DNA of 64,000 bases. Origin: Chthonomonas calidirosea (lineage in GTDB: Bacteria > Armatimonadota > Fimbriimonadia > Fimbriimonadales > Fimbriimonadaceae). Location of the stretch: contig CAMCWC010000001.1 in NCBI GenBank assembly GCA_945882415.1, forward strand, positions 248,001 through 312,000, read 5' to 3'. Shown here one piece after another: positions 51,040 to 62,620 of the stretch. Numbering within the stretch: the first letter of the stretch is position 1; every line of letters begins with the position of its first letter. The notes beneath the pieces were generated by a model. The model did not search any database. It saw only the letters and a list, made by a program, of their open reading frames with translations, and was not told where the DNA came from. The translations under genes and the position numbers were made by a program.

Positions 51040-51723
51040 TTGGTAAGACGAAGTGTGCTCGCCTCTCTCTCGGCTCTCCTCATTCTCCAAGCCGGTCCCA
51101 AACCGACTCCGTTGTTCAACGGCAAGGACCTCACGGGTTGGACCATGGACGTGCCCGAACTCGACAAGAATCCGGAAGGGACAAAACCATTCATCGTGCG
51201 CAACGGGCTCCTGGTCAGCCTCGGAACCCCCGGTGGCCACCTCATCACCCGGCAGGCCTACGCAAACTACCGCTTCACCGTCGAGTACCGATTCTCGGCT
51301 AAGCCCGGCAACTGCGGCGTCCTCGTCCATGCCAGCAAACTCCGCCGACTTTACGGCATGTTCCCGCAAAGCATGGAAGTGCAGATGCAAAGCGGCGACG
51401 CGGGAGACTTCTGGTGCATCGGCGAAGACATCGTTGTTCCCGATATGGAAGCCCGTCGCGGACCAAAGGAAAACTGGGGCGTGGATGGAGACAAAGCTCG
51501 TCGAATCAAAAACCTCACCGACGGCACAGAGAAGCCGCTGGGCGAGTGGAACAAGATGATGGTCGAGTGCATCGGCGACCGCGTTACCGTTTGGGTGAAC
51601 GACGTGAAGGTCAACGAGGGCACCAACTGCACCGCGAAGTCGGGCAAAATCGCCATCCAGGCCGAAGGCAGCGAAGTCGAGTTCCGCAAAGTGGAACTCC
51701 AACAGCTCCGGGTATCGCTCTAG
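51040..51723 (+). CDS. Secreted DUF1080 (3-keto-disaccharide hydrolase-like) protein
   Basis: This protein is about 227 residues if TTG 51040 is the start, which gives the signal peptide 'VRRSVLASLSALLILQAGP'. GTG 51055 or TTG 50959 are alternatives. The mature part starts 'PLFNGKDLTGWTM', the DUF1080 hallmark, with 'NYRFTVEYRFSAKPGNCGVLVH' in pattern and 'WNKMMVECIGDRVTVWVNDV' in pattern. Some members hydrolyse 3-keto-glycosides in the periplasm. It converges with the methyltransferase gene through CTAG. Confidence 0.85.
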   Translation: MVRRSVLASLSALLILQAGPKPTPLFNGKDLTGWTMDVPELDKNPEGTKPFIVRNGLLVSLGTPGGHLITRQAYANYRFTVEYRFSAKPGNCGVLVHASKLRRLYGMFPQSMEVQMQSGDAGDFWCIGEDIVVPDMEARRGPKENWGVDGDKARRIKNLTDGTEKPLGEWNKMMVECIGDRVTVWVNDVKVNEGTNCTAKSGKIAIQAEGSEVEFRKVELQQLRVSL

Positions 51724-52403
51724 CGCTTCTCGAATACCAGTAAATGCTGCCACGGCAGCATCGTTTTGTTCTCGACAAACTTCAGCGGAAAGAAGGCCAT
51801 TTCTTTCCGCACCTGAGCTTCCGTCATTTTGTGAAGCTCCTTAATCGGCACGTTCTCGTCCTCGCCGCGATACTCAACAAGCACCAACTTGCCGCCCCTC
51901 TTCAGGCCCTTCACCATGTTCGTGACCATCTCATATGGGTAATCGAACTCGTGATACACATCCACCAGCAGCATCAAATCGGCGCTGGCCGGGGCAATCT
52001 TTGGGTCCTTAATGGTGCCAAGAATCCCTTTCACATTCTTGGTTCCTTGCTTCGCCGCCTTTTGAGCGATGATGTCGAGCATCTCTTGCTGAATCTCGAC
52101 CGCTAGAACTTTGCCCTTCGGCCCGACGAGCCTGGCCATCGGGAAGCTGATCGTCCCGCTCCCGGCACCGATGTCGGCCACGACCATCCCCGGCTTCAAG
52201 CCGAGATTCCGGATCATGACGCTGACCGCCTCTTCCTTCTCCCGCTCCGGCCGGTCCAACCACCCCGCCGCCTGATGCCCCATTACCTGAGCAATCTCTC
52301 GCCCGCAGTAAAACTTCCCGATCCCGTCGAAACTAGCGGGCGCCGTCGTATATCCCGGCCGCCCCTGCAAAACCAACCCCGCCAACAAGATCGTAAGTGA
52401 CAT
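51720..52403 (-). CDS. Exported class I SAM-dependent methyltransferase
   Basis: This 227-residue protein has an N-terminal hydrophobic signal-like segment ('LTILLAGLVLQGRPG'). The methyltransferase core has motif I 'VVADIGAGSGTISFPMARL', 'VLAVEIQQEMLDII' and 'LMLLVDVYHEFDYP'. The block 'AGWLDRPEREKEE' near residue 45 is common in a group of exported methyltransferases of unknown substrate. An export signal on a SAM enzyme is odd, because SAM is cytoplasmic; the segment might be an uncleaved anchor. Confidence 0.85.
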   Translation of the reverse strand: MSLTILLAGLVLQGRPGYTTAPASFDGIGKFYCGREIAQVMGHQAAGWLDRPEREKEEAVSVMIRNLGLKPGMVVADIGAGSGTISFPMARLVGPKGKVLAVEIQQEMLDIIAQKAAKQGTKNVKGILGTIKDPKIAPASADLMLLVDVYHEFDYPYEMVTNMVKGLKRGGKLVLVEYRGEDENVPIKELHKMTEAQVRKEMAFFPLKFVENKTMLPWQHLLVFEKR

Positions 52404-52450
52404 GACTACTGGAGTCTACGACGATCTGGGTTGAGTTGCGCTCCGCTTGA

Positions 52451-52492
52451 GCCATTCAAAGCCACACAAGGCAACGCAAAGCCATTCAAAGC
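52451..52492. repeat. Direct repeat GCCATTCAAAGC next to the tRNA gene
   Basis: GCCATTCAAAGC occurs at 52451-52462 and 52481-52492, with two related 10-base units (GCCACACAAG, GCAACGCAAA) between them, giving a 10-base period. It lies just downstream of the 3' end of tRNA-Gln. It is non-coding and may be a slippage-type repeat. Confidence 0.5.
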
Positions 52493-52504
52493 GCTCCCAA
52501 GATT

Positions 52505-52578
52505 TGGCTGCCCGACATGGATTCGAACCACGATTAACTGAGTCAGAGTCAGTCGTCCTACCATTAGACGATCGGGCA
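52505..52578 (-). tRNA. tRNA-Gln (anticodon CTG), CCA encoded
   Basis: This 74-base cloverleaf is read on the minus strand. The acceptor stem TGCCCGA/TCGGGCA has seven pairs, the D arm is GTCT-AATGGTA-GGAC, and the anticodon stem ACTGA/TCAGT has loop CTCTGAC, so the anticodon is CTG (reads CAG, glutamine). The T arm is CGTGG-TTCGAAT-CCATG, followed by discriminator G and an encoded CCA. Confidence 0.95.
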
Positions 52579-52607
52579 AGGCAGAACCTAGAAGATACCA
52601 CACCTCA

Positions 52608-54188
52608 TCATTTCGACTTCAACTTGATTGGCCCCAGAGCGGGATCTTTGGTCCCCTTCTTCTGCGTCAGGCGGTCCTTGGAGGCGTTTGGCGGGAAGCC
52701 GTTGAACTGTCGCCAGAGCTCGAAGCCGAGCGGAACCGTGTCCAACATGATCCAGCCGTAGCTCTCCGCTCCTGGGCGCAGTAGCTCACTCGACGGCCAA
52801 AGTGCATCTTTCCGGCCCGTCGGTAGCGTGTGCTGTTCCGGAGTGATGACCACCCGGTATCGCGCTGTTCCGTCGTCAACGGGATCGATCACCGAAATTC
52901 TGCCGCCGAAGGTTCCCATCGCCGCTCCCGGCATACCGGTGATCTGAACCGCCGGCCAACCTGCGAATTGCAACCGAACCGGTCGTCCTACTTGAACCCA
53001 AGGAACATCGTTATCGGTGACAAAGAGTTCCACCGCGCGTTCCGCTGTCGTCGGCACGATTGTTGCGAGCACGTCTCCCGACTTCACAATTGTCCCGCCG
53101 CCAACGGTGGTCAACCGCGCGATGCGTCCTGCGGTCGGAGCACGCACAACCTGCTGGTCGGTTCGAAGCCGCAAGTTTGCGAGTTCATTTTCAACCTTCT
53201 GAATTTCCCCGCCATTCTTGGCAAGGCTTTCCCGGGCCGACTGAATATCTGCCCCAACCCGACTAATCGCCGCCGCCGTGTCGTTCGTAATCCGGCTTAG
53301 GTTCAGCGATGCGTTCGTCACATCTCGTTCTGCCACGGCAAGGTTCGCTTTGGCTTGGTCAACGTTCGCCATGGCTCGTTCGACTTCCAACTCCGCCTGC
53401 GTTTCGCCAAGCCCGCCGAGTTTCAAATCGCGTCGCGCAATCTCAAGGGACTTTTCGGCGCGCACAACCTCCGTCTCCGACTTCACCATGTCGTTCTCAA
53501 GAAACTCGAGGTCCTGCTTGGAGCGAAGACCTTTGGCCTCTAAATCTCGAACTCGGTTCAGCCGAAGGCGGACGGTGTCACGTTGCTGCTTTGCGGCCTG
53601 AACGGCCTGCTCTCCCTGAACAACTCGGTCTGCCTGAATCCGTGCCCGTTCCGAAGCGCTTTGGCGGGCGACCTGGGTCGCAATCGCGAGCGACTTTTCG
53701 GACTGACGGACAAGCTGCTTCGCTGCCTCCACTCGCGATCGAGACTGGCCAACCGCTTGTCTTGCAGCATCGATCGCATCCTGACGGCTCTGTCGGAGTT
53801 CCTCTCGCTGTTGGTTGAGTTCGGTAACCCGGGAGTTCGTCTCGGTTTGGGCCAATTGGGTGAGGTCTCGTTGCTCCGCCAATCGCGCCGTGAGTCCGCG
53901 ATCTAGGAACTTGCTGTCGACGTCTTCGAGCACCGCAAGCACATCGCCCTTCTTGACGATCTGCCCCTCCTGAACTCGCCACTCCTTGAGTCTGGCCGGA
54001 ATCGGTGCCTCTACCGACTGCGGCCGGTCCATGGCGTTAAAGACAATAACTTGCCCCGTGGCCTCGACCGTCTGCTGCCAAGGGATAAACGCTAGCCCCG
54101 CGATCAAACCGACAAAGCCGAGCAAAATGCCAACGATCCTTCGGCCCACTTTGCGTCGCTTCACGAGTTCTAACGATTGAAGTCTCAT
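52608..54188 (-). CDS. HlyD-family membrane fusion protein of an export system
   Basis: This 526-residue periplasmic adaptor has one N-terminal transmembrane helix (residues 17-36) and a split biotinyl-lipoyl-like domain ('IPARLKEWRVQEGQIVKKGDVL' in pattern, and 'RAPTAGRIARLTTVGGGTIVKSGDVL' in pattern). A long coiled-coil hairpin lies between them (about 95-350), matching the length needed to reach TolC, and a C-terminal beta-barrel follows. It starts at the last base of the ABC gene (1-base overlap), the third gene of the operon. Confidence 0.9.
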   Translation of the reverse strand: MRLQSLELVKRRKVGRRIVGILLGFVGLIAGLAFIPWQQTVEATGQVIVFNAMDRPQSVEAPIPARLKEWRVQEGQIVKKGDVLAVLEDVDSKFLDRGLTARLAEQRDLTQLAQTETNSRVTELNQQREELRQSRQDAIDAARQAVGQSRSRVEAAKQLVRQSEKSLAIATQVARQSASERARIQADRVVQGEQAVQAAKQQRDTVRLRLNRVRDLEAKGLRSKQDLEFLENDMVKSETEVVRAEKSLEIARRDLKLGGLGETQAELEVERAMANVDQAKANLAVAERDVTNASLNLSRITNDTAAAISRVGADIQSARESLAKNGGEIQKVENELANLRLRTDQQVVRAPTAGRIARLTTVGGGTIVKSGDVLATIVPTTAERAVELFVTDNDVPWVQVGRPVRLQFAGWPAVQITGMPGAAMGTFGGRISVIDPVDDGTARYRVVITPEQHTLPTGRKDALWPSSELLRPGAESYGWIMLDTVPLGFELWRQFNGFPPNASKDRLTQKKGTKDPALGPIKLKSK

Positions 54189-55945
54189 TACTTACCCCCT
54201 CCAATCCGTGCCGTTCCCGCTCTGAGGTTTGCCGATAGAAATGGGAACAGTTCCGAAAAGACGGACTTTGCGCTCTGGGCAAGTTGCGTCGGCGAGCCAG
54301 ACTCGACAATCTGTCCTTCTGCCATCACGTGCACCTTGTCCGTCCGTAAAATCACGTCTGGTTGGTGAGAGATATCGATAATCGTCCACGGGTTACTAGC
54401 TTCGAAGATGTTGTCCAAAATCCGCTGGGAAATCCGCTCGTCAATTCCGGTCAGTGCCTCGTCCAAAATCAGCAACCGTGGCTTTCCGAGAATGGCCCGA
54501 GCGATCAGCAAGCGTTGCAACTGCCCTCGCGAAATGTTTTGGCCACCACTAACGAGCTCCGCTTGAAGCCCACCCGGAATTGCGGCGAGATCATCATCGA
54601 GCTCTGCCGTGGTTACGGCCCAGCGAAGGTCCGCGCTTGAGATCTCATCCCGGCCAACCCGAATGTTCTCCTCAATCGTTCCATGGAAGACATCGGGTTC
54701 ATATCCCGCAAGTGAGACCTGTGCGCGAAGCCGCTGCAAGCATGCTTCGCGAATATCCACGTTGTCAAAAATCGCGTCTCCCATCGATGGCGACTGGAAT
54801 CCGCATAGGACGGCGGCCAATGTCGATTTGCCTGCACCGCTCGCGCCGACCAAACTCACTCGATCCCCGGCGTGAATCGTGAGGTTCAGGCCGTTGAGCA
54901 CCTTGTGCCCGTTGTCGTACTCAAAGTGCAAGTTCTTGAGTTCCACCAGAGCGCCCGCCGGGTGAAGCGCCGGCAACTCCTTCCCACCGTCTCGCTCCGT
55001 TTCTAGCTCGGAAATCACCGCAACCTTATCAAGACCAGCCAAAAGGTCGAAGTACTTTTCCGACTGGCGAATCAGCTTTTCTAAAGAGGCAAGGGAAGTG
55101 GTAACGATGATCTGGGCAGCAACGAGCTGACCAACCGTCAGTGACCCGTTGAGAACCAACCAGCCACCCGTTCCGAGTACACCCGCCGACGCAAGGGCTG
55201 CAAAGGCAAAGAATCCGCCAAGTTGCCGGCGGTTCACCCGGAAATGAGAGCGCCGCGCAAGAATGTAATTCGTGACCAGCTCATCGGTTTTCGAGGACAA
55301 AGATTCACGATTCGCATACAGCTTAAGCGACAAATGACATCGGGCAATATCTTGTAGCCACTCGGCCACGATGTACTTCTGCTTGCTCTCGTAGAGGCTG
55401 CTCTTTATTCCGCCGTATCCCAGCAGGATCGTGCCACCAAAGAACAGCACAAGTACGGTTACTGCGGAAAGGAGTAGTCCCGGATTGTAAATGCCAAGCA
55501 CCAGCACCGTCACGATGGTCTGGATGAAAGCCGTGAAACCATCGAGCAGTAACTTACTGAGCGCTTTCTGAATCGTGATGACATCAAAGAAGCGATTCAC
55601 CAACTCGGGTGCGTAGTGCGTGCGCATCGCCGCCGCGCGCACGTTCAACATGCGGTCGGCAAGCGCCAAAGCCGTATGAGCAAACACCCGCTGCTGCACC
55701 GTCTCAACCACGCCGTACTGCAAAAGCTGCACCAGGCCAGCGACACTTAATCCACCTAAAACCAAGAAGGAAAGCAGTACAACCGGCTGCAGAAACATTC
55801 CTGCAGCAATGGTATTCACCAACGACTGGGTCGCCAGCGGCACCGCAAGCGTCATCACAATGACAACGAGGGTGTAAGTGGCAAGCAGACAAAGGTCCGC
55901 TCGCTCACGAGAGACGAGTCGGAGAAATCGGGTTACTGGTTTCAA
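54188..55945 (-). CDS. ABC exporter (fused membrane and ATPase domains)
   Basis: This 585-residue protein has six transmembrane helices in residues 1-300 and an ATPase domain from about 340, with 'LVGASGAGKSTLAAV' (Walker A), 'RLLILDEALTGID' (Walker B and D-loop) and 'IIDISHQPDVI' (H-loop). The signature is degenerate: 'GQNISRGQLQRLLIARA' has ISRGQ in place of LSGGQ. There is no N-terminal C39 peptidase domain, so cargo need not have a double-glycine leader. It overlaps the adaptor and TolC genes and forms a type I secretion-like or efflux complex with them. Confidence 0.92.
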   Translation of the reverse strand: MKPVTRFLRLVSRERADLCLLATYTLVVIVMTLAVPLATQSLVNTIAAGMFLQPVVLLSFLVLGGLSVAGLVQLLQYGVVETVQQRVFAHTALALADRMLNVRAAAMRTHYAPELVNRFFDVITIQKALSKLLLDGFTAFIQTIVTVLVLGIYNPGLLLSAVTVLVLFFGGTILLGYGGIKSSLYESKQKYIVAEWLQDIARCHLSLKLYANRESLSSKTDELVTNYILARRSHFRVNRRQLGGFFAFAALASAGVLGTGGWLVLNGSLTVGQLVAAQIIVTTSLASLEKLIRQSEKYFDLLAGLDKVAVISELETERDGGKELPALHPAGALVELKNLHFEYDNGHKVLNGLNLTIHAGDRVSLVGASGAGKSTLAAVLCGFQSPSMGDAIFDNVDIREACLQRLRAQVSLAGYEPDVFHGTIEENIRVGRDEISSADLRWAVTTAELDDDLAAIPGGLQAELVSGGQNISRGQLQRLLIARAILGKPRLLILDEALTGIDERISQRILDNIFEASNPWTIIDISHQPDVILRTDKVHVMAEGQIVESGSPTQLAQSAKSVFSELFPFLSANLRAGTARIGGGK

Positions 55946-57294
55946 TTCAATCCTCCCTCTGCTGCGCGAAGCGCGGCTTTCGCAATGTGGAACTCTGCGA
56001 TGACATCAACGAGCCTCGCGGCGGTTTCGGCCGTCCCGCGCTCTCGCTGGTTGAGCAAGAAGAGCGTCCCATCCCCTTCCTGGAACCGGATCAGTTCACC
56101 CAGCTCTAACTGTTGGGCCAACTCTAGTTCGGCAACATTGGCCTGCACCCGTTCATAAGCCCGCCGGAGGGCCGAGGTCGCATCTTGAACTTCGGTTTCA
56201 ATTTCTCGCTTGAGCAAAGCTTCGTCCTGCCGGATCTTTTCAAGCTTTTGTTGGGCCTGTTCAATTTGACCATCCGCCGTTTGTTGGCGAAGCGGAATGG
56301 AGTAGAACACCCCCGCCTTTACCGTCGCGCCAACTGAGTTTCGGCCGGTATCAATTCCTGGCGAAACAACCACATCCAAACTTGGGCGTCGCTCATTCTT
56401 TGCCAGTGCCAAGCTCTGCTCAATCACCTTGGTTTCGGCGCTAATTATTCTCGCTTCTGGACGTTGAGCTACAGCTCGAGAGAATGCGGCTTCCAATTCT
56501 TCCGCTGTCGGTAGCGCAGGCTTTGGAAGGCTGCCTGGTGTTCCGATTGGCCCATTCCAAAGAAAAACGTTGAGTTTCAACAAAGTCTTTTCGATATCTC
56601 GCTCTGCCTTCACGAGCCCACCTTCGCGTCGACGCACCTCAGTCTCAGCTTCAACGGTATCGATCTTCGGCAAATCGCCACGTTCATAACGCTCTCTAAT
56701 CCCGTCCGCTCGAACCTTCGCAATGTTAAGAAGGCGCGCCGCAATCTCTCTTCTCTCGCGTGCCGCTACCCATTCCCAAAACGCCTCACTAGCCTTTAGG
56801 CGAACGTTCAGCCGGATCAGCCGAGCCTCTTCGGTCGCCTGGCCAAACTCAAGATTCGCCACTGCCTCCGCAATCGACTTCTGGTTGACCCCGTTTCCTC
56901 GAAGCAAAGGAAGCTTGACGCCAACAAAGTACTCGCCAAGCTCACCGGTAGAACTTCCCGGCGATTTCACCGAGCCAAAGTTCAATCGCGATCCGGCAAA
57001 AACCTTCGCGCCAGACCGAGTGGTCTGCTCGACCGTGGTCTCCAGCATCTGGGTCGACAGCGCTTTGCCCCGTGTGCTGGAACTGTTGTAGCGCAAGGCA
57101 GACGTGTCCACCATGAGCACTGGGTCAAAGGCACCGCGCTTCTCCTTACTCTTTGCGGCGGCAATTTCTACCGCATTTTGTGCCGCACGCAGCTTCGGAA
57201 AACCTTGCTCGACCTTGTCCAAAAACGTCTCAAGGGTTACGTTTTGGGCAGGGAACAGACTATGAATGATGAAGAGAAACGATTCAAATCTCAA
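55942..57294 (-). CDS. TolC-like outer membrane efflux protein
   Basis: This protein is about 450 residues from TTG 57294, with GGAGG 10 bases upstream; GTG 57318 adds eight residues. A short signal peptide ('FLFIIHSLFPAQ') is followed by two OEP repeats: 'FLDKVEQGFPKLRAAQNAVEIA' in pattern, 'YFVGVKLPLLRGNGV', 'RYERGDLPKIDTVEAE' and 'VFYSIPLRQQTADGQIEQAQQ' in pattern. It is expected to form a trimeric channel through the outer membrane. It is the first gene of the three-gene export operon and overlaps the ABC gene by 4 bases. Confidence 0.9.
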   Translation of the reverse strand: MRFESFLFIIHSLFPAQNVTLETFLDKVEQGFPKLRAAQNAVEIAAAKSKEKRGAFDPVLMVDTSALRYNSSSTRGKALSTQMLETTVEQTTRSGAKVFAGSRLNFGSVKSPGSSTGELGEYFVGVKLPLLRGNGVNQKSIAEAVANLEFGQATEEARLIRLNVRLKASEAFWEWVAARERREIAARLLNIAKVRADGIRERYERGDLPKIDTVEAETEVRRREGGLVKAERDIEKTLLKLNVFLWNGPIGTPGSLPKPALPTAEELEAAFSRAVAQRPEARIISAETKVIEQSLALAKNERRPSLDVVVSPGIDTGRNSVGATVKAGVFYSIPLRQQTADGQIEQAQQKLEKIRQDEALLKREIETEVQDATSALRRAYERVQANVAELELAQQLELGELIRFQEGDGTLFLLNQRERGTAETAARLVDVIAEFHIAKAALRAAEGGLN

Positions 57295-57324
57295 AGATGA
57301 AGGACCTCCAATGCTCACGCATAA

Positions 57325-57351
57325 AGAGCGGCCGAACTAGTCGGTCGCTCT
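57325..57351 (-). terminator. Hairpin between clpX and the export operon
   Basis: An 11-base stem (AGAGCGGCCGA / TCGGTCGCTCT, one G-T or mismatch) with a 5-base loop sits in the 204-base gap between clpX and the TolC gene on the minus strand. T-rich flanks are present on both sides. It probably ends clpX transcription. The rest of the gap (57352-57498) must hold the export operon promoter, but none is clear. Confidence 0.6.
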
Positions 57352-57498
57352 CTTTTGGAAGGTCTCGCACTCAGATGCGCCGCCGGGGTTTCCCCGTGTT
57401 GACGACGACGCAGATTTCCTCGTTGAAACCGGCTACTCCCCTTCTAATTCAAGACAAACAATTCGTGAATCAAAAGAGTTCCATGAATATGGACTTTT

Positions 57499-58791
57499 TT
57501 AGCCAGTTTCGCGCAACTGAAGCTCGGTCAAGTAAATCGGCCGCGCGTTGCCTTCCAAAATTCCTTTAGGAACGATGACCCTCTGAACGTCGGGCAGACT
57601 CGGGACTTCGAACATCGCCTCTTGCAGAATCTCTTCTAACAACGCTCGCAGCGCTCTTGCCCCGGTTTTGCGACGAATCGCTTCTCGGGCGATTTCTCGC
57701 AGCGCCGAAGTCTCAACCACGAGTTCTACGTCCTCAAGTTCAAAAAGATGCTTGTACTGCTTGATCAGCGAGTTCTTTGGCTCCGTCAAAACTCGGATCA
57801 GATCGTCTTCCGTGAGCGGATTTAATGCCGTAATCACGGGCAACCGACCGATGAACTCCGGCAGGAAACCGTACTTCACCAAATCGTCCGGCACAACGTC
57901 CGTCGGCACGATGTCTAGAGCCTTTTCCGGTGCGTTGCGGAAACCCATCACGGCGCCTTGCTGCCGCCGTCGAACGATTTCCTCAATCCCCTCAAAAGAG
58001 CCGGCACAAATGAACAGGATCCCGGTCGTGTCGATCTGGATGAACTCTTGGTGTGGATGCTTACGCCCGCCATTTTGCGGCACGTTCGCGATGGTTCCCT
58101 CAAGGATTTTCAGGAGTCCCTGCTGCACCCCTTCGCCGCTCACATCTCGGGTGATCGAAGTTCCGCCTTGAGACTTCCGCGCGACCTTATCGATCTCGTC
58201 GATGTACACAATCCCCCTCTCGGCGAGCTTTTTGGGGTCGGCACCGTTAATGCTCTCCGCTTCGCGGTAGAGCCGGACCAAAACATTCTCGACATCTTCG
58301 CCAACGTAGCCCGCTTCGGTAAGGGACGTCGCGTCGGCAATGGCAAACGGAACGTGCATCATCCGCGCCAAAGTTTGAGCAAGCAGAGTTTTGCCCGTCC
58401 CGGTCGGGCCCATGAGCAGGATGTTGCTCTTCGAAACCTCGGTTCGTCCCGGTGTCGTGTCTAGGGTTCGTTTGTAATGGTTATAAACGCCGACGGCTAA
58501 GGCTCGCTTCGCCGCGTCTTGACCCACCACGTAGGTGCTCAAAAAATCAACGATGCTTCTCGGCTTAGGTAGCCGCGCTTTGGTGAATTCGGGATCAAGG
58601 GTCGGGGCTGCAGGGAAGGGATGAGAATCGCTATTGCGAGCGCGAGTGCCTTCCTGGTCAACGATCTCCGTGCAAAGCTGAACGCAATCGGAGCAGATCG
58701 CCCCATAGAGTCCGGTAATCAGCCGCGACACTGTGTCCTTTGATCTTCCACAAAGGGCGCAGAGGTCGCGGCGATCCGGTGCCTGCATCAT
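57499..58791 (-). CDS. clpX: ATP-dependent Clp protease ATP-binding subunit ClpX
   Basis: This 430-residue AAA+ unfoldase feeds substrates to ClpP. The N-terminal zinc-binding domain has C11, C14, C33 and C36. Walker A is 'GPTGTGKT' (residues 128-135), the pore loop is 'GYVGEDVE', Walker B is 'IVYIDEIDK', and the C-terminal IGF-type loop region 'EFIGRLPV' is present. It follows clpP by 10 bases, the usual clpP-clpX order. Confidence 0.97.
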
Positions 58792-58801
58792 CGTGCCTTG
58801 A

Positions 58802-59386
58802 TTATCGGTTGGTCGGTCGAATTACGTTATCCACGATCCCGTAATCCTTCGCTTCGTCCGAAGACATCCATCGGTCGCGATCGCAGTCGATTCGAACCTG
58901 CTCGGGATCCTTCTTGGTGTGCTCACCCAAAATGACCATCAACTTGTCCATCAGCGTGTTGGTTTCTTTGACCTGAACATTGATGTCCGCCATGGTTCCG
59001 CGGAATCCGGAGGAAACTTGGTGAATCATCACGCGGGCGTTCGGCAACGCACTTCGCTTGCCGTCCGCGCCCGCGGCCAAGAGCACCGCACCCATGCTTG
59101 CCGCGATTCCGACGCAAGTGGTCGCAATCGCCGGCTTCACCAACTGCATCGCATCGTAGATTGCGAGTCCGGCATAAACCGATCCGCCGGGCGAGTTGAT
59201 GTAAAAGTCGATGTCCTTGTCTGGGTCTTCCTTTTCGAGGAACAAAAACTGGGCGACGATCAGGTTGGCGACATAGTCGTCAACTTCCGTGCCCAAGAAG
59301 ACGATCCGGTCCTTGAGAAGCCTCGACCACAGGTCGTAGCTTCGCTCACCGTTCTGCGTTTTTTCGATAACGTACGGAATTCCCAT
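58802..59386 (-). CDS. clpP: ATP-dependent Clp protease proteolytic subunit ClpP
   Basis: This 194-residue serine protease forms tetradecameric chambers. The catalytic triad is S97 ('GIAASMGA'), H122 ('VMIHQVS') and D171 ('DCDRDRWMS'). 'INSPGGSV' is the oxyanion glycine loop. It starts at ATG 59386 with the typical 'IPYVIE' N terminus. It forms an operon with clpX. Confidence 0.97.
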
Positions 59387-59499
59387 CTGAATGCAGATTA
59401 CTCCGCGCTGAACTTGGGAGTTCGCAGGACCAATGCCGAGTAGGACCTTGGATCAGGCGCATCCAACGGGATCTCCCGCAAGCTCGAACCTTTAGTCTC

Positions 59500-60078
59500 T
59501 CAGCATTCCTCGACAAACCGTTCAATTCGAGGATCAGGAATGAGCCACATTGCCGCGAGAGCAGCATAGATCACCATCGAAATCCGTGAGTCGTACGGCG
59601 ACACCAGCACGCCGAGAACGTAGCCAACAATGGAGCTACGTCCTTTCAGATCGTTTCCGATCGCACGGGCCAGGAGGGAGTTCGTTCCCTGTGAGCGAAT
59701 GATCACCGTTTGAAGAATCCAGTAAGCCACCCCGCACATTCCCAAAGAGACGCCATATAGTTGGGTTGGAATTGCCGCAAAGTTCGACCGACCAAGCCAG
59801 CTCGTTGTGAAGGGTACGAGGGTCAGCCAGAACAGCAGATGCATATTTGCCCACAAGATGCTTCCGTTTACACGGGTCGACAGCTTCATCATGTGGTGAT
59901 GGTTGTTCCAGTAAATGCCGACGTGGATGAAACTAAGCACGAACGAGAGGAAGACCGGCCAAACCGACTTCAGCGCTTGCCAGGATGTTAGTTCCGGTGC
60001 CTTGATATCAAACACCATGATGGTGATGATGATCGCTAAGACCCCGTCACTAAACGCTTCAAGCCGGCCGTTATTCAT
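59500..60078 (-). CDS. TMEM175/DUF1211-family channel-like protein
   Basis: This 192-residue protein has about five to six transmembrane helices. It opens with the family signature 'RLEAFSDGVLAIIITIMVFDIK' in pattern (the F-S-D of TMEM175). Prokaryotic TMEM175 proteins are potassium channels that assemble as tetramers of this one-repeat form. The start overlaps the carbonic-anhydrase-like gene by 8 bases, so all three genes of this operon are coupled. An ion-balancing role alongside the anion channel is inference. Confidence 0.85.
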   Translation of the reverse strand: MNNGRLEAFSDGVLAIIITIMVFDIKAPELTSWQALKSVWPVFLSFVLSFIHVGIYWNNHHHMMKLSTRVNGSILWANMHLLFWLTLVPFTTSWLGRSNFAAIPTQLYGVSLGMCGVAYWILQTVIIRSQGTNSLLARAIGNDLKGRSSIVGYVLGVLVSPYDSRISMVIYAALAAMWLIPDPRIERFVEEC

Positions 60079-60826
60079 TTGGGTTTTGGAGATAGTCTTT
60101 CATCTCGCCAGAGGCAACGTCCATCACGCAGAATCGTCTTGGCTGGCTGAATGAGCCGAGCTCGACATCACCGTTGATCAGAATTGCCCCCATCAAAATG
60201 ACGTACCGACACCGGACCTTCGTGGCCTTCACCAATTCGAGAATCCGGTCGTCAATCGCTTCGTAGATCACTTCCGTAGCTTCATAAATTCGGTTTGGAG
60301 CCCCAAGAATCCGATCCTTCTGCCTCAACAGAATCTGTTCAAGCGTGTTCATCTGGTAATCAAGCTCTTGCAGTTGGCCTGAAATAACTTCGTCCCGTTC
60401 CAGTCCGCCGAGCGCCGCCCGCGCGGCGCCGCAACAGCCCGTCCGGGCCGAATGGCCGTGCCGGAGGATGCTCCCCAGTTCACCTTCCGAAGAGATTCCG
60501 ATGTGCGGTCCGTAATAAATGAACATCGCGCCGTCGTCCGGTGCGTGACTTGCGAACGCGCCCATTCCCGTGAGGCCGGTGAACGGAAACCCGTTCAGTC
60601 CACCCATCTTGAACGGGCCCAGAAACTCCTTTGCCCGCGCTGGGTATTGAATACTGTTGACATCGTCGCTGCAGATGCTATCGGCTGACATCACTTGCGA
60701 TGGTTCTAAGTCCAGCTCCATCTCTACAAAGTCGATGAGCCGATTCACCGCGTCGATTGTCGTTAAGGCACCCGGATAGTGCTGACGAATAATTTCAAGC
60801 TTCTCACGTTTTTTCATAAAGTTCAC
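60071..60826 (-). CDS. LCIB-type (theta-class) carbonic anhydrase homologue
   Basis: This 251-residue cytoplasmic protein matches the LCIB/C family known from Chlamydomonas chloroplasts, whose fold is related to beta-carbonic anhydrases. Key residues are C52 in 'SICSDDVN' (C-x-D), the block 'NGFPFTGLTGMGAFASH' (residues 78-94), H108 in 'YGPHIGIS' and C131-C132 in 'RTGCCGAARAAL'. C52, H108 and one of C131/C132 are the candidate zinc ligands. Its GTG start overlaps the bestrophin stop (GTGA), and its 3' end overlaps the TMEM175-like gene. The family call is from remembered motifs; activity is inferred. Confidence 0.78.
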   Translation of the reverse strand: MNFMKKREKLEIIRQHYPGALTTIDAVNRLIDFVEMELDLEPSQVMSADSICSDDVNSIQYPARAKEFLGPFKMGGLNGFPFTGLTGMGAFASHAPDDGAMFIYYGPHIGISSEGELGSILRHGHSARTGCCGAARAALGGLERDEVISGQLQELDYQMNTLEQILLRQKDRILGAPNRIYEATEVIYEAIDDRILELVKATKVRCRYVILMGAILINGDVELGSFSQPRRFCVMDVASGEMKDYLQNPNE

Positions 60827-61821
60827 AAAAGGATGTCGTGAGTTGGCCGAATCGCCGCTGGCAACTCTGTTTCCCCAATCATCTCCAACATATCAATTTC
60901 CATCGCTCGTTGCAACTGAGCCATCGGAACGTCGTTCGGACCACCCTCAAACGGATTTTCAGTACTATCGCCCACCTGCTCCAAAGTAGTAAAGATCCAG
61001 GAAACAATCACGCTGAATGGAACCACTAGCCAGACGCAGTAAGGGTTGTTCGGTGCCAAAGCACTGAACTCTTTCAGGAGCCCGAAGGGAAGCAGGGTTG
61101 CGAAAAGCTTCACAAACATGCCGTTCGCGGTCGCAAACTGACGGGGATACGGCGTGTTCTTGATTCGCTCCGCCCGACCCTGAGCATCGTAGTGGCTTGT
61201 GATGGCCTCCTGAAGCGCGACGTGCCGAACCGAGTCCAGCTTGCCGGTTTCCGCCAAGCGTCCAACGAGCGCGGACTGCAGGCCCATAATCTGCGTCGCC
61301 CGGTTCTTTGTTTTCAGAACGCCCGCAAGTTCTTCTTCGCCCAAAAACTTCGCCAGCTCCAGTTCCACTGGCGTCACCATCTCTGGCACTTCGAACCAGC
61401 GCTCGCGATACTCCTGGTTCTGCGGCTCCACCATGCTCTCCCAAGCTCGGGGCTCGCGAAGCTGATACCGCAAGGCCGCAACCCAGGCCAAATGCCGCCG
61501 AACCAAATCTCGGACCAGCTCCGGATCGTGCGGAAGGTAGCCCTTCGTCATTGCCGCCCAGGCCCGACTTGCATTCATGATGCTGCCCCAAATCTGCCGG
61601 GCTTCCCAGGCTCGATTGTAGCTCTGGGTGTTCTTGAAGCCGACAATGAAAGCGGTAGCCGTACCGAGCATCGCGACCACGGGCCAAGGAATCGCCAGCC
61701 ACTTCCAACCCAGCCAAGCATACAGCGCGACCGGAACGAAGCTGTGCACCAGCAGAATGAGCGCCCTCCGTCGGGTCCACAGCAGCACTTCCCTGATCCG
61801 ATACCGCCGCCCCGTGTGCAT
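60823..61821 (-). CDS. Bestrophin-family anion channel (UPF0187)
   Basis: This 332-residue protein has an N-terminal helix region 'VLLWTRRRALILLVHSFVPVALYAWLGW' in pattern, 'IPWPVVAMLGTATAFIVGFKN' in pattern, and 'NTQSYNRAWEARQIWG', the hallmark of bacterial bestrophins, with more helices near residues 245-290. Family members form pentameric chloride or bicarbonate-permeable channels. It is the first gene of an overlapping operon with the LCIB-like enzyme and a TMEM175-like protein, which suggests bicarbonate as the permeant ion. Confidence 0.88.
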   Translation of the reverse strand: MHTGRRYRIREVLLWTRRRALILLVHSFVPVALYAWLGWKWLAIPWPVVAMLGTATAFIVGFKNTQSYNRAWEARQIWGSIMNASRAWAAMTKGYLPHDPELVRDLVRRHLAWVAALRYQLREPRAWESMVEPQNQEYRERWFEVPEMVTPVELELAKFLGEEELAGVLKTKNRATQIMGLQSALVGRLAETGKLDSVRHVALQEAITSHYDAQGRAERIKNTPYPRQFATANGMFVKLFATLLPFGLLKEFSALAPNNPYCVWLVVPFSVIVSWIFTTLEQVGDSTENPFEGGPNDVPMAQLQRAMEIDMLEMIGETELPAAIRPTHDILL

Positions 61822-61845
61822 GCCGCAATTATGTACAGAATCTTA

Positions 61846-61923
61846 GGAGTGCGGCAGTTTTACTGCCCCTTTTTGCAACCCGTAAACGCGCCGAAGGCCG
61901 TAGCGCGGCGGCTCTGCCGCAGC
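61846..61923. repeat. Palindromic interspersed repeat, copy 1
   Basis: This copy starts GGAGTGCGGCAGTTTTACTG, a hairpin, then has a variable T-rich spacer, then 'CCGAAGGCCGTAGCGCGGCGG' in pattern and a second hairpin GGCGGCTCTGCCGC. It lies just upstream of the bestrophin gene, 24 bases from its start codon. Confidence 0.75.
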
Positions 61924-61934
61924 CACCCGACCCT

Positions 61935-62012
61935 GGAGTGCGGCAGTTCTACGGCCGCTATTTGGAACCCTCAAACACTCCGAAGGTCGTAGCGCGGCGG
62001 CTCTGCCGCCGC
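61935..62012. repeat. Palindromic interspersed repeat, copy 2
   Basis: This is the same layout as copy 1, 11 bases further on: GGAGTGCGGCAGTTCTACGG, then TCCGAAGGTCGTAGCGC and GGCGGCTCTGCCGCCGC. It stops 26 bases before the 3' end of the gene at 62038. Confidence 0.75.
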
Positions 62013-62037
62013 ATGAGAATCAGTTGTAGCCTTCGAA

Positions 62038-62421
62038 CTATCGCGAACCGTCAGCAGTACCGAAATAGCAATCCGCTCCAGCACACTGAACACGGTAGGT
62101 CCGGGATAAGAAGGGAAGAAGCTTATCCCGTGCATGGAAGACTGCTACGTTCTCGCCTTCACGATCGTACGAGATTTCGAACCTCTCCCGCCTTTCCGGT
62201 CGTTCAAAAACGCCGCGGGTGTGCTCAGGCATCGAGCCGAGAAGATCCGAATAGCTTTCCGGCAACCGGCGATTCTCCACCCAATGCTTCTCGGCATGAA
62301 TCCCTAGTAGCCCGAAACTCTGGTTTACAAAAGACTGCCACCGGAAGTACCGCTCGAACCCAAAACATCCCAAAATCAAGACTAGGAAGATGATCAGCCC
62401 ATTGCGTAATTTCAAGTTCAT
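62038..62421 (-). CDS. Small exported or membrane-anchored protein
   Basis: This protein is 127 residues from ATG 62421; a longer reading starts inside a repeat and is rejected. An N-terminal hydrophobic segment (residues 7-26, 'NGLIIFLVLILGCFGF') is followed by a soluble domain with 'EKHWVENRRLPESYSDLLGS' in pattern and two cysteines near the C terminus ('VQCAGADCYFG'). No family is recognised. Copies of the palindromic repeat flank it on both sides. Confidence 0.55.
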   Translation of the reverse strand: MNLKLRNGLIIFLVLILGCFGFERYFRWQSFVNQSFGLLGIHAEKHWVENRRLPESYSDLLGSMPEHTRGVFERPERRERFEISYDREGENVAVFHARDKLLPFLSRTYRVQCAGADCYFGTADGSR

Positions 62422-62436
62422 CCTTTGATCCACTCT

Positions 62437-62515
62437 GGAGTGCGGCAGTTCTACTGCCGCTTTCTGCATCCCACGAACTCACCCAAAGTCGTAGCTCGGT
62501 GGCTCTGCCGTAGCT
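62437..62515. repeat. Palindromic interspersed repeat, copy 3
   Basis: GGAGTGCGGCAGTTCTACTG and its pairing arm CTGCCGC form a clean hairpin. The middle (CACGAACTCACCCAAAGTCG) is close to copy 4, and the second hairpin is degraded (GGTGGCTCTGCCGTAGC). Confidence 0.75.
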
Positions 62516-62543
62516 TGAGACTTTGTTGAAGCATATTAACTCT

Positions 62544-62620
62544 GGAGTGCGGCAGTTCTACTGCCGCTTTTTGTAACCCACGAACTCTCCAAAGGTCGTA
62601 GGGAGGCGGCTCTGCCGCCG
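62544..62620. repeat. Palindromic interspersed repeat, copy 4
   Basis: This is the best-preserved copy: GGAGTGCGGCAGTTCTACTG, TTTTTGTAACCCACGAACTC, CCAAAGGTCGTAGGGAGG, then GGCGGCTCTGCCGCC. It lies in the 237-base gap between two small genes; nothing else is seen in that gap. Confidence 0.75.

Follow-up and report, generated by a model that had tools for sequence, protein, structure and literature searches.

Proteins of the LCIB family and bestrophin-like channels both take part in the CO2-concentrating mechanism (CCM) of Chlamydomonas (LCIB/LCIC and BST1-3). There, LCIB is found in the stroma and BST in the thylakoid, and they serve RuBisCO. In bacteria, the DAB system (DabA/DabB) pairs a beta-carbonic anhydrase (CA)-like protein with a membrane protein, and it couples CO2 hydration to the membrane potential for the accumulation of inorganic carbon (Ci) (PMC13144422). 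KpBest from Klebsiella, a Na+ channel, is the sole characterised bacterial bestrophin in the open-licence PMC literature searched, and that literature named no physiological role for bacterial bestrophins. For the bacterial channels CmTMEM175 and MtTMEM175, excerpts of the literature named no physiological partner.

Here, we analysed a 64,000-nucleotide stretch of the genome of Chthonomonas calidirosea (Armatimonadota), called the window below, which carries an operon for a bestrophin, an LCIB homologue and a TMEM175 homologue. The operon shares with the Chlamydomonas CCM the PF18599 enzyme family, with a predicted fold match, and the channel superfamily; in both, CO2/HCO3- interconversion would be joined to HCO3- movement, putatively so for the window operon. 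In contrast to the algal system, its parts are encoded in one operon, together with a K+ channel, in bacteria mostly without RuBisCO. It is like DAB in pairing a bacterial beta-CA-like protein with a membrane protein, but the families are different and the bestrophin-LCIB module has channels only. No description of a bestrophin-LCIB operon was found in open-licence PMC full texts (subscription papers lie outside that scope). The parts are known, whereas their combination and the K+-channel partners appear undescribed within the open-licence literature searched.

Operon layout and properties of the enzyme and the bestrophin

Three overlapping genes were found on the minus strand of the window, in the order bestrophin, LCIB homologue, TMEM175 homologue. 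The bestrophin and LCIB genes overlap by 4 bases, the LCIB and TMEM175 genes by 8. An ORF check confirmed this layout, as originally predicted, with exact coordinates, and all the motifs were recovered in the translations: NTQSYNRAWEAR, C52-S-D, GPHIG (H108), TGCCGAA (C131/C132) and FSD. The Pfam matches of all three proteins were well beyond the cut-offs. The clpP-clpX genes follow on the same strand, 113 bp downstream of the operon. The host genome has 3.36 Mb in 38 contigs and is 99% complete.

A putative promoter or leader, with a TGTACATAATTGCGGC / TGTACATAAT box, lies directly before the bestrophin ATG (61822-61837, minus strand), as judged by sequence inspection and by a 33-bp match in a sister species. 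The TGTACATAAT box is just a few bases from the ATG, so the transcript may be leaderless. A 143-aa ORF further upstream of the operon is flanked by a repeat of ~80 bp, in four copies with 81-100% identity (window 61846-62620). Copies are present at the same site in the sister species G014, and weaker matches on two other contigs.

The LCIB homologue (60071-60826, minus strand, 251 aa, GTG start) matched PF18599 (LCIB_C_CA) with E=2.8e-71. The closest solved sequences were 6kfs, PtLCIB4, 9vzj, LCIB and LCIC. Its AlphaFold2 model (pLDDT 91.6, with 47 homologues as input) superposed on PtLCIB4. The Z scores were 28.5 to 6kfs, 28.3 to PtLCIB4 and ~22 to LCIB and LCIC of Chlamydomonas; canonical beta-CAs scored 10-12. 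Profile and predicted structure thus agree with the LCIB-family membership first proposed (Z 22-28 to the four LCIB-family structures). The theta-class label given with it is one naming in use, but Pfam and the structures put LCIB with the beta-CA fold.

Residues C52, D54, H94, H108, R122, C131 and C132 were invariant in all 47 homologues. The candidate Zn ligands (Cys...His...Cys) and the active-site Asp are conserved, with C131 or C132 as the metal ligand. The position after the first Cys was Ser in 34 of the 47 homologues and Cys in 10, and it is Ser also in PtLCIB4. S53 of the window protein is equivalent to the residue changed in the S47R structure and, by offset, H94 to that of H88A. The protein is therefore like PtLCIB4 (5b5y) and 6kfs in fold (Z 28), has the C-S-D motif of PtLCIB4 and keeps the S47 and H88 equivalents; unlike them, it is bacterial and encoded in an operon with channels, and it is only ~30% identical to them. 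According to a review, PtLCIB3 and PtLCIB4 are apparently constitutively active (PMC9614477). Because the candidate residues are conserved and the C-S-D site is as in PtLCIB4, the window protein is a putative carbonic anhydrase, and CA activity is likely.

Alternatively, LCIB could work not as an enzyme but as a bestrophin subunit that senses CO2/HCO3- or gates the channel, which would itself pass Cl- or organic anions to control volume or potential. The lack of quantified in vitro CA activity for Chlamydomonas LCIB (PMC9614477) fits this role, and the close linkage and the K+ channels described below are compatible with volume control too. The invariance of all candidate catalytic residues in the 47 homologues and the C-S-D motif shared with PtLCIB4, described as active, speak against it, and we consider it quite unlikely.

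The first gene of the operon (60823-61821, minus strand) encodes a Bestrophin_2 channel subunit of 332 aa (PF25539, E=5e-45). Its model (pLDDT 95.1) had a Z score of 26.8 to KpBest, which shares the bacterial bestrophin fold, and of ~22 to animal BEST1/BEST2 and plant VCCN1. The neck residues T54-F58-F62 align with I62-I66-F70 of KpBest and I76-F80-F84 of human Best1. The first neck residue is thus Thr, not Ile; the middle position (F80 of hBest1) has Phe, as F58, and F62 is also Phe. KpBest, in contrast, has an I-I-F neck and is a Na+ channel, and its I66F change moves selectivity toward Cl- (PMC8496536). Human bestrophins are highly permeable to HCO3- (PMC8496536). The T-F-F neck of the window bestrophin, which is LCIB-linked where KpBest is not, is associated with the type expected of anion channels, as judged from the alignment.

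Conserved linkage of bestrophin and LCIB genes

When 84,980 species genomes were scanned, the best 80 LCIB loci were kept, with about 50-70% LCIB identity. A same-strand bestrophin was the immediate neighbour in 61 of these 80 best loci, upstream of LCIB in 54 and downstream in 7, with a median gap of 12 bp; an adjoining bestrophin was absent in the other 19. When the neighbours of the 80 loci were clustered without prior labels, bestrophin was the top family. The linkage was found in Bacteroidota, Acidobacteriota and Gemmatimonadota, in addition to the window genome. The linked bestrophins belong to more than one sublineage and occur in both gene orders. The adjacency expected by the original prediction thus recurs across several phyla, and the bestrophin-LCIB module is almost certainly real.

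A chance or passive neighbourhood of functionally uncoupled genes is very improbable. It would agree with the presence of TMEM175 without the other two genes in G014 and with the unlinked state of some LCIB clades, but chance adjacency of bestrophin and LCIB was rejected by the 61 linked loci among the best 80, in several phyla, with their short spacing, several bestrophin sublineages and both gene orders.

A separate flavobacterial LCIB clade in the Bacteroidota (L115-L140) consists mostly of proteins of ~225-245 aa with a CSDE motif. Each genome has a single copy, which stands on its own and often adjoins a DEAD-box helicase gene. Among the loci examined, this clade was never bestrophin-linked and its neighbours were unrelated. 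The idea that every LCIB is linked to a bestrophin was therefore rejected, as this clade and the two distant LCIBs L144 and L145 from the same phylum as the window genome have unrelated neighbours.

A Phe-Phe neck was present in 61 of 61 LCIB-linked bestrophins vs 19 of 66 unlinked ones, an association whose significance by Fisher test is overstated, since the linked genes are related by descent. In the tree, every linked bestrophin fell in one subclade of 76 rows. Fifteen of these rows are unlinked and also carry the FF neck, so the neck need not be a co-adaptation and may be a clade trait. The C-terminal bestrophin tail LPPxxxPxNNI was considered as an LCIB docking signal and dropped, because unlinked relatives have it too.

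Potassium channels, other neighbours and origin of the operon

The final gene of the operon (59500-60078, minus strand) encodes a TMEM175-type K+ channel homologue of 192 aa (PF06736, E=6e-30). Its best solved relative was CmTMEM175 (5vre). In the alignment with MtTMEM175, R5 matches Arg24, F9-S10-D11 the FSD motif and T19 Thr38, the residue that makes MtTMEM175 selective for K+ (PMC7176437). The window protein thus keeps the Arg, the FSD motif and the selectivity Thr of the bacterial TMEM175 channels; unlike them, it stands in an operon with potential partners.

TMEM175 was present in four loci only: the window, L079, L076 and L064. The order is BEST-LCIB-TMEM in both the window and L079 (Bryobacter), whose TMEM175 proteins are 49% identical. 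L076 has TMEM-BEST-LCIB, and L064 has TMEM-Kchannel-BEST-LCIB, with both kinds of K+ channel in one run. The TMEM175 proteins of these two loci are 51% identical to each other and sit upstream of the bestrophin. The two TMEM175 lineages, at opposite operon ends, are 25-32% identical to each other.

The second commonest neighbour family of the 80 LCIB loci was a classical K+ channel of 220-250 aa, assigned by Pfam to Ion_trans_2 (PF07885) in tests of six cluster members. The filters follow T-x-x-G[FY]GD, e.g., TLTSIGFGDITP, of the GFGD type. This channel occurred in 21 of the 80 loci, including many Bacteroidota operons, and in 19 it was directly upstream of the bestrophin. In L050 and L074, it was directly upstream of LCIB, without a bestrophin. 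No such channel gene appeared in the flanks of 66 unlinked bestrophins, which spanned only 1.5-2 kb. TMEM175 as a general third partner was rejected, given its four loci and the far commoner Ion_trans_2 channel. The broader idea of a K+ channel as module partner was strengthened by this second, unrelated family in equivalent operons elsewhere; most LCIB operons are without any K+ channel.

In L029, a Na+/H+ exchanger gene (PF00999, 5e-57) lies 11 bp downstream of the bestrophin, and in L039 and L041 a member of the same neighbour cluster likewise follows the bestrophin by 11 bp. An H+-pyrophosphatase gene is upstream of LCIB in L007. In L053, L055, L059 and L060, the bestrophin gene is overlapped or immediately preceded by the gene of a ~165-aa multi-span membrane protein that has no Pfam family and is possibly an alternative partner in some LCIB operons. 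A membrane protein of 81-82 aa, also without a Pfam family, is encoded ahead of the operon in two acidobacterial loci, L066 (4685-4930) and L076 (upstream of TMEM175).

LCIB was absent from all 60 relatives of the window genome searched, 19 of them from the same genus. At the phylum level, it was present in 3 of 291 genomes, including the window genome, and Bestrophin_2 in 6 of 151. The window LCIB fell inside a Bacteroidota-dominated clade (SH-aLRT 99), and the window bestrophin likewise fell in a Bacteroidota-dominated clade. The simplest reading of these trees and distributions is that the bestrophin-LCIB pair was acquired by horizontal transfer. Vertical inheritance within the genus was rejected, as none of the 19 other same-genus genomes has LCIB and TMEM175 was seen next to clpP in G000 and G014 only.

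By blastn, the close sister species G014 was 80% identical to the window from 51184 to 60106, through TMEM175, and again from 61805. The segment 60107-61804 (minus strand), with most of LCIB and the bestrophin, is missing from G014. An intact TMEM175 gene adjoins clpP there (L248, 8320-8955), and the 33-bp match of 61805-61837 to L248 8923-8955 shows that the stretch leading up to the bestrophin start is kept ahead of TMEM175. No LCIB was found in the G014 genome and no bestrophin at the clpP/TMEM175 site. A weakly similar 28-bp stretch in G014 matches the LCIB 3' end, which is suggestive of a deletion in G014 rather than an insertion in the window. As G014 keeps TMEM175 without the other two genes, TMEM175 can evidently serve alone.

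Proposed function and significance

The protein families, the operon, its conserved linkage and the conserved catalytic and pore residues were observed directly. Together with electrochemistry and gene content, they lead us to infer CA activity, HCO3- as the permeant ion, charge coupling and a direction of flow. In the mechanism we propose, LCIB, a cytosolic zinc enzyme of the beta-CA fold, would interconvert CO2 and HCO3- at the membrane, and the bestrophin pentamer would conduct HCO3-. A K+ channel (TMEM175 in the window, the classical K+ channel in many Bacteroidota) would let K+ accompany HCO3-, so that large HCO3- fluxes would leave the membrane potential undisturbed. K+ channels of two unrelated families have repeatedly joined the bestrophin-CA pair, and the simplest explanation is that they compensate the charge of an HCO3- current. 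A module function in HCO3- and K+ movement is probable. As an overall explanation, a conserved channel-enzyme module of LCIB, an HCO3--conducting bestrophin and a K+ counter-ion channel is favoured with modest confidence.

HCO3- should flow outward through a passive channel when the inside of the cell is negative, and efflux would be favoured. Respiratory CO2 would then be hydrated, HCO3- and K+ would exit, and H+ would be retained. The net effect would be a CO2-driven exchange of K+ out for H+ in, like that of a K+/H+ antiporter. It could lower the cytosolic pH under alkaline stress or shed KHCO3 on osmotic downshift, with osmotic release equally possible. An occasional Na+/H+ exchanger among the neighbours agrees with a part in setting the cytosolic pH. 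In our estimate, efflux of K+ and HCO3- as a means of pH or osmotic control has rather less than an even chance of being the true direction. The fuller proposal is more tentative: a horizontally spreading electroneutral K+/HCO3- module, which takes its K+ channel from either of two unrelated families and drives K+/H+ exchange with CO2 in heterotrophs.

The genome context bears on both the enzyme and the algal parallel. A canonical beta-CA (PF00484) was present in 29 of 30 LCIB-operon genomes tested, with two matches in the window genome. LCIB as the sole CA of these genomes was thus rejected, and it would be an accessory rather than a housekeeping CA. RuBisCO_large had no match in 15 of the 17 genomes searched, among them the window genome, and for most genomes a role in serving RuBisCO was rejected. 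The two genomes with a family match, G302 and G316, are both operon-bearing, and the match may be a true RuBisCO or a RuBisCO-like protein. The algal CCM that had served as a model for the operon is therefore an analogy only, with RuBisCO absent from the genome; the shared enzyme family and channel superfamily stand, as does a widespread bestrophin-LCIB module with K+-channel partners.

These data also weigh on Ci acquisition as the function. CO2 would be trapped as HCO3-, or HCO3- admitted, for anaplerotic or biosynthetic carboxylases, in a heterotroph counterpart of the LCIB/BST pathway of algae. Algal LCIB does cooperate with bestrophin-like channels in Ci supply (PMC9614477, PMC13159521), and the tight LCIB-bestrophin linkage in bacteria would suit such a pathway. 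However, a passive anion channel at an inside-negative potential favours HCO3- loss, a canonical beta-CA is already present in nearly all of these genomes, the window genome is without RuBisCO, and the recurrent K+ channels are left unexplained. We therefore consider Ci acquisition unlikely.

In the algal CCM, LCIB and bestrophin-like channels both have central roles, yet the biochemistry of LCIB is disputed. The conserved operon makes the questions on LCIB and on bacterial bestrophins directly testable in culturable Chryseobacterium, Pedobacter and Flavobacterium. Its recurrence in several phyla suggests that non-photosynthetic bacteria use a channel-plus-enzyme device for the movement of bicarbonate and potassium, in which CO2/HCO3- interconversion and paired ion channels could serve pH or osmotic homeostasis. 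If true, an electroneutral K+/HCO3- module would assign bacterial bestrophins a role, and it would possibly be a bacterial form of the LCIB-bestrophin partnership later adopted in algal CCMs.
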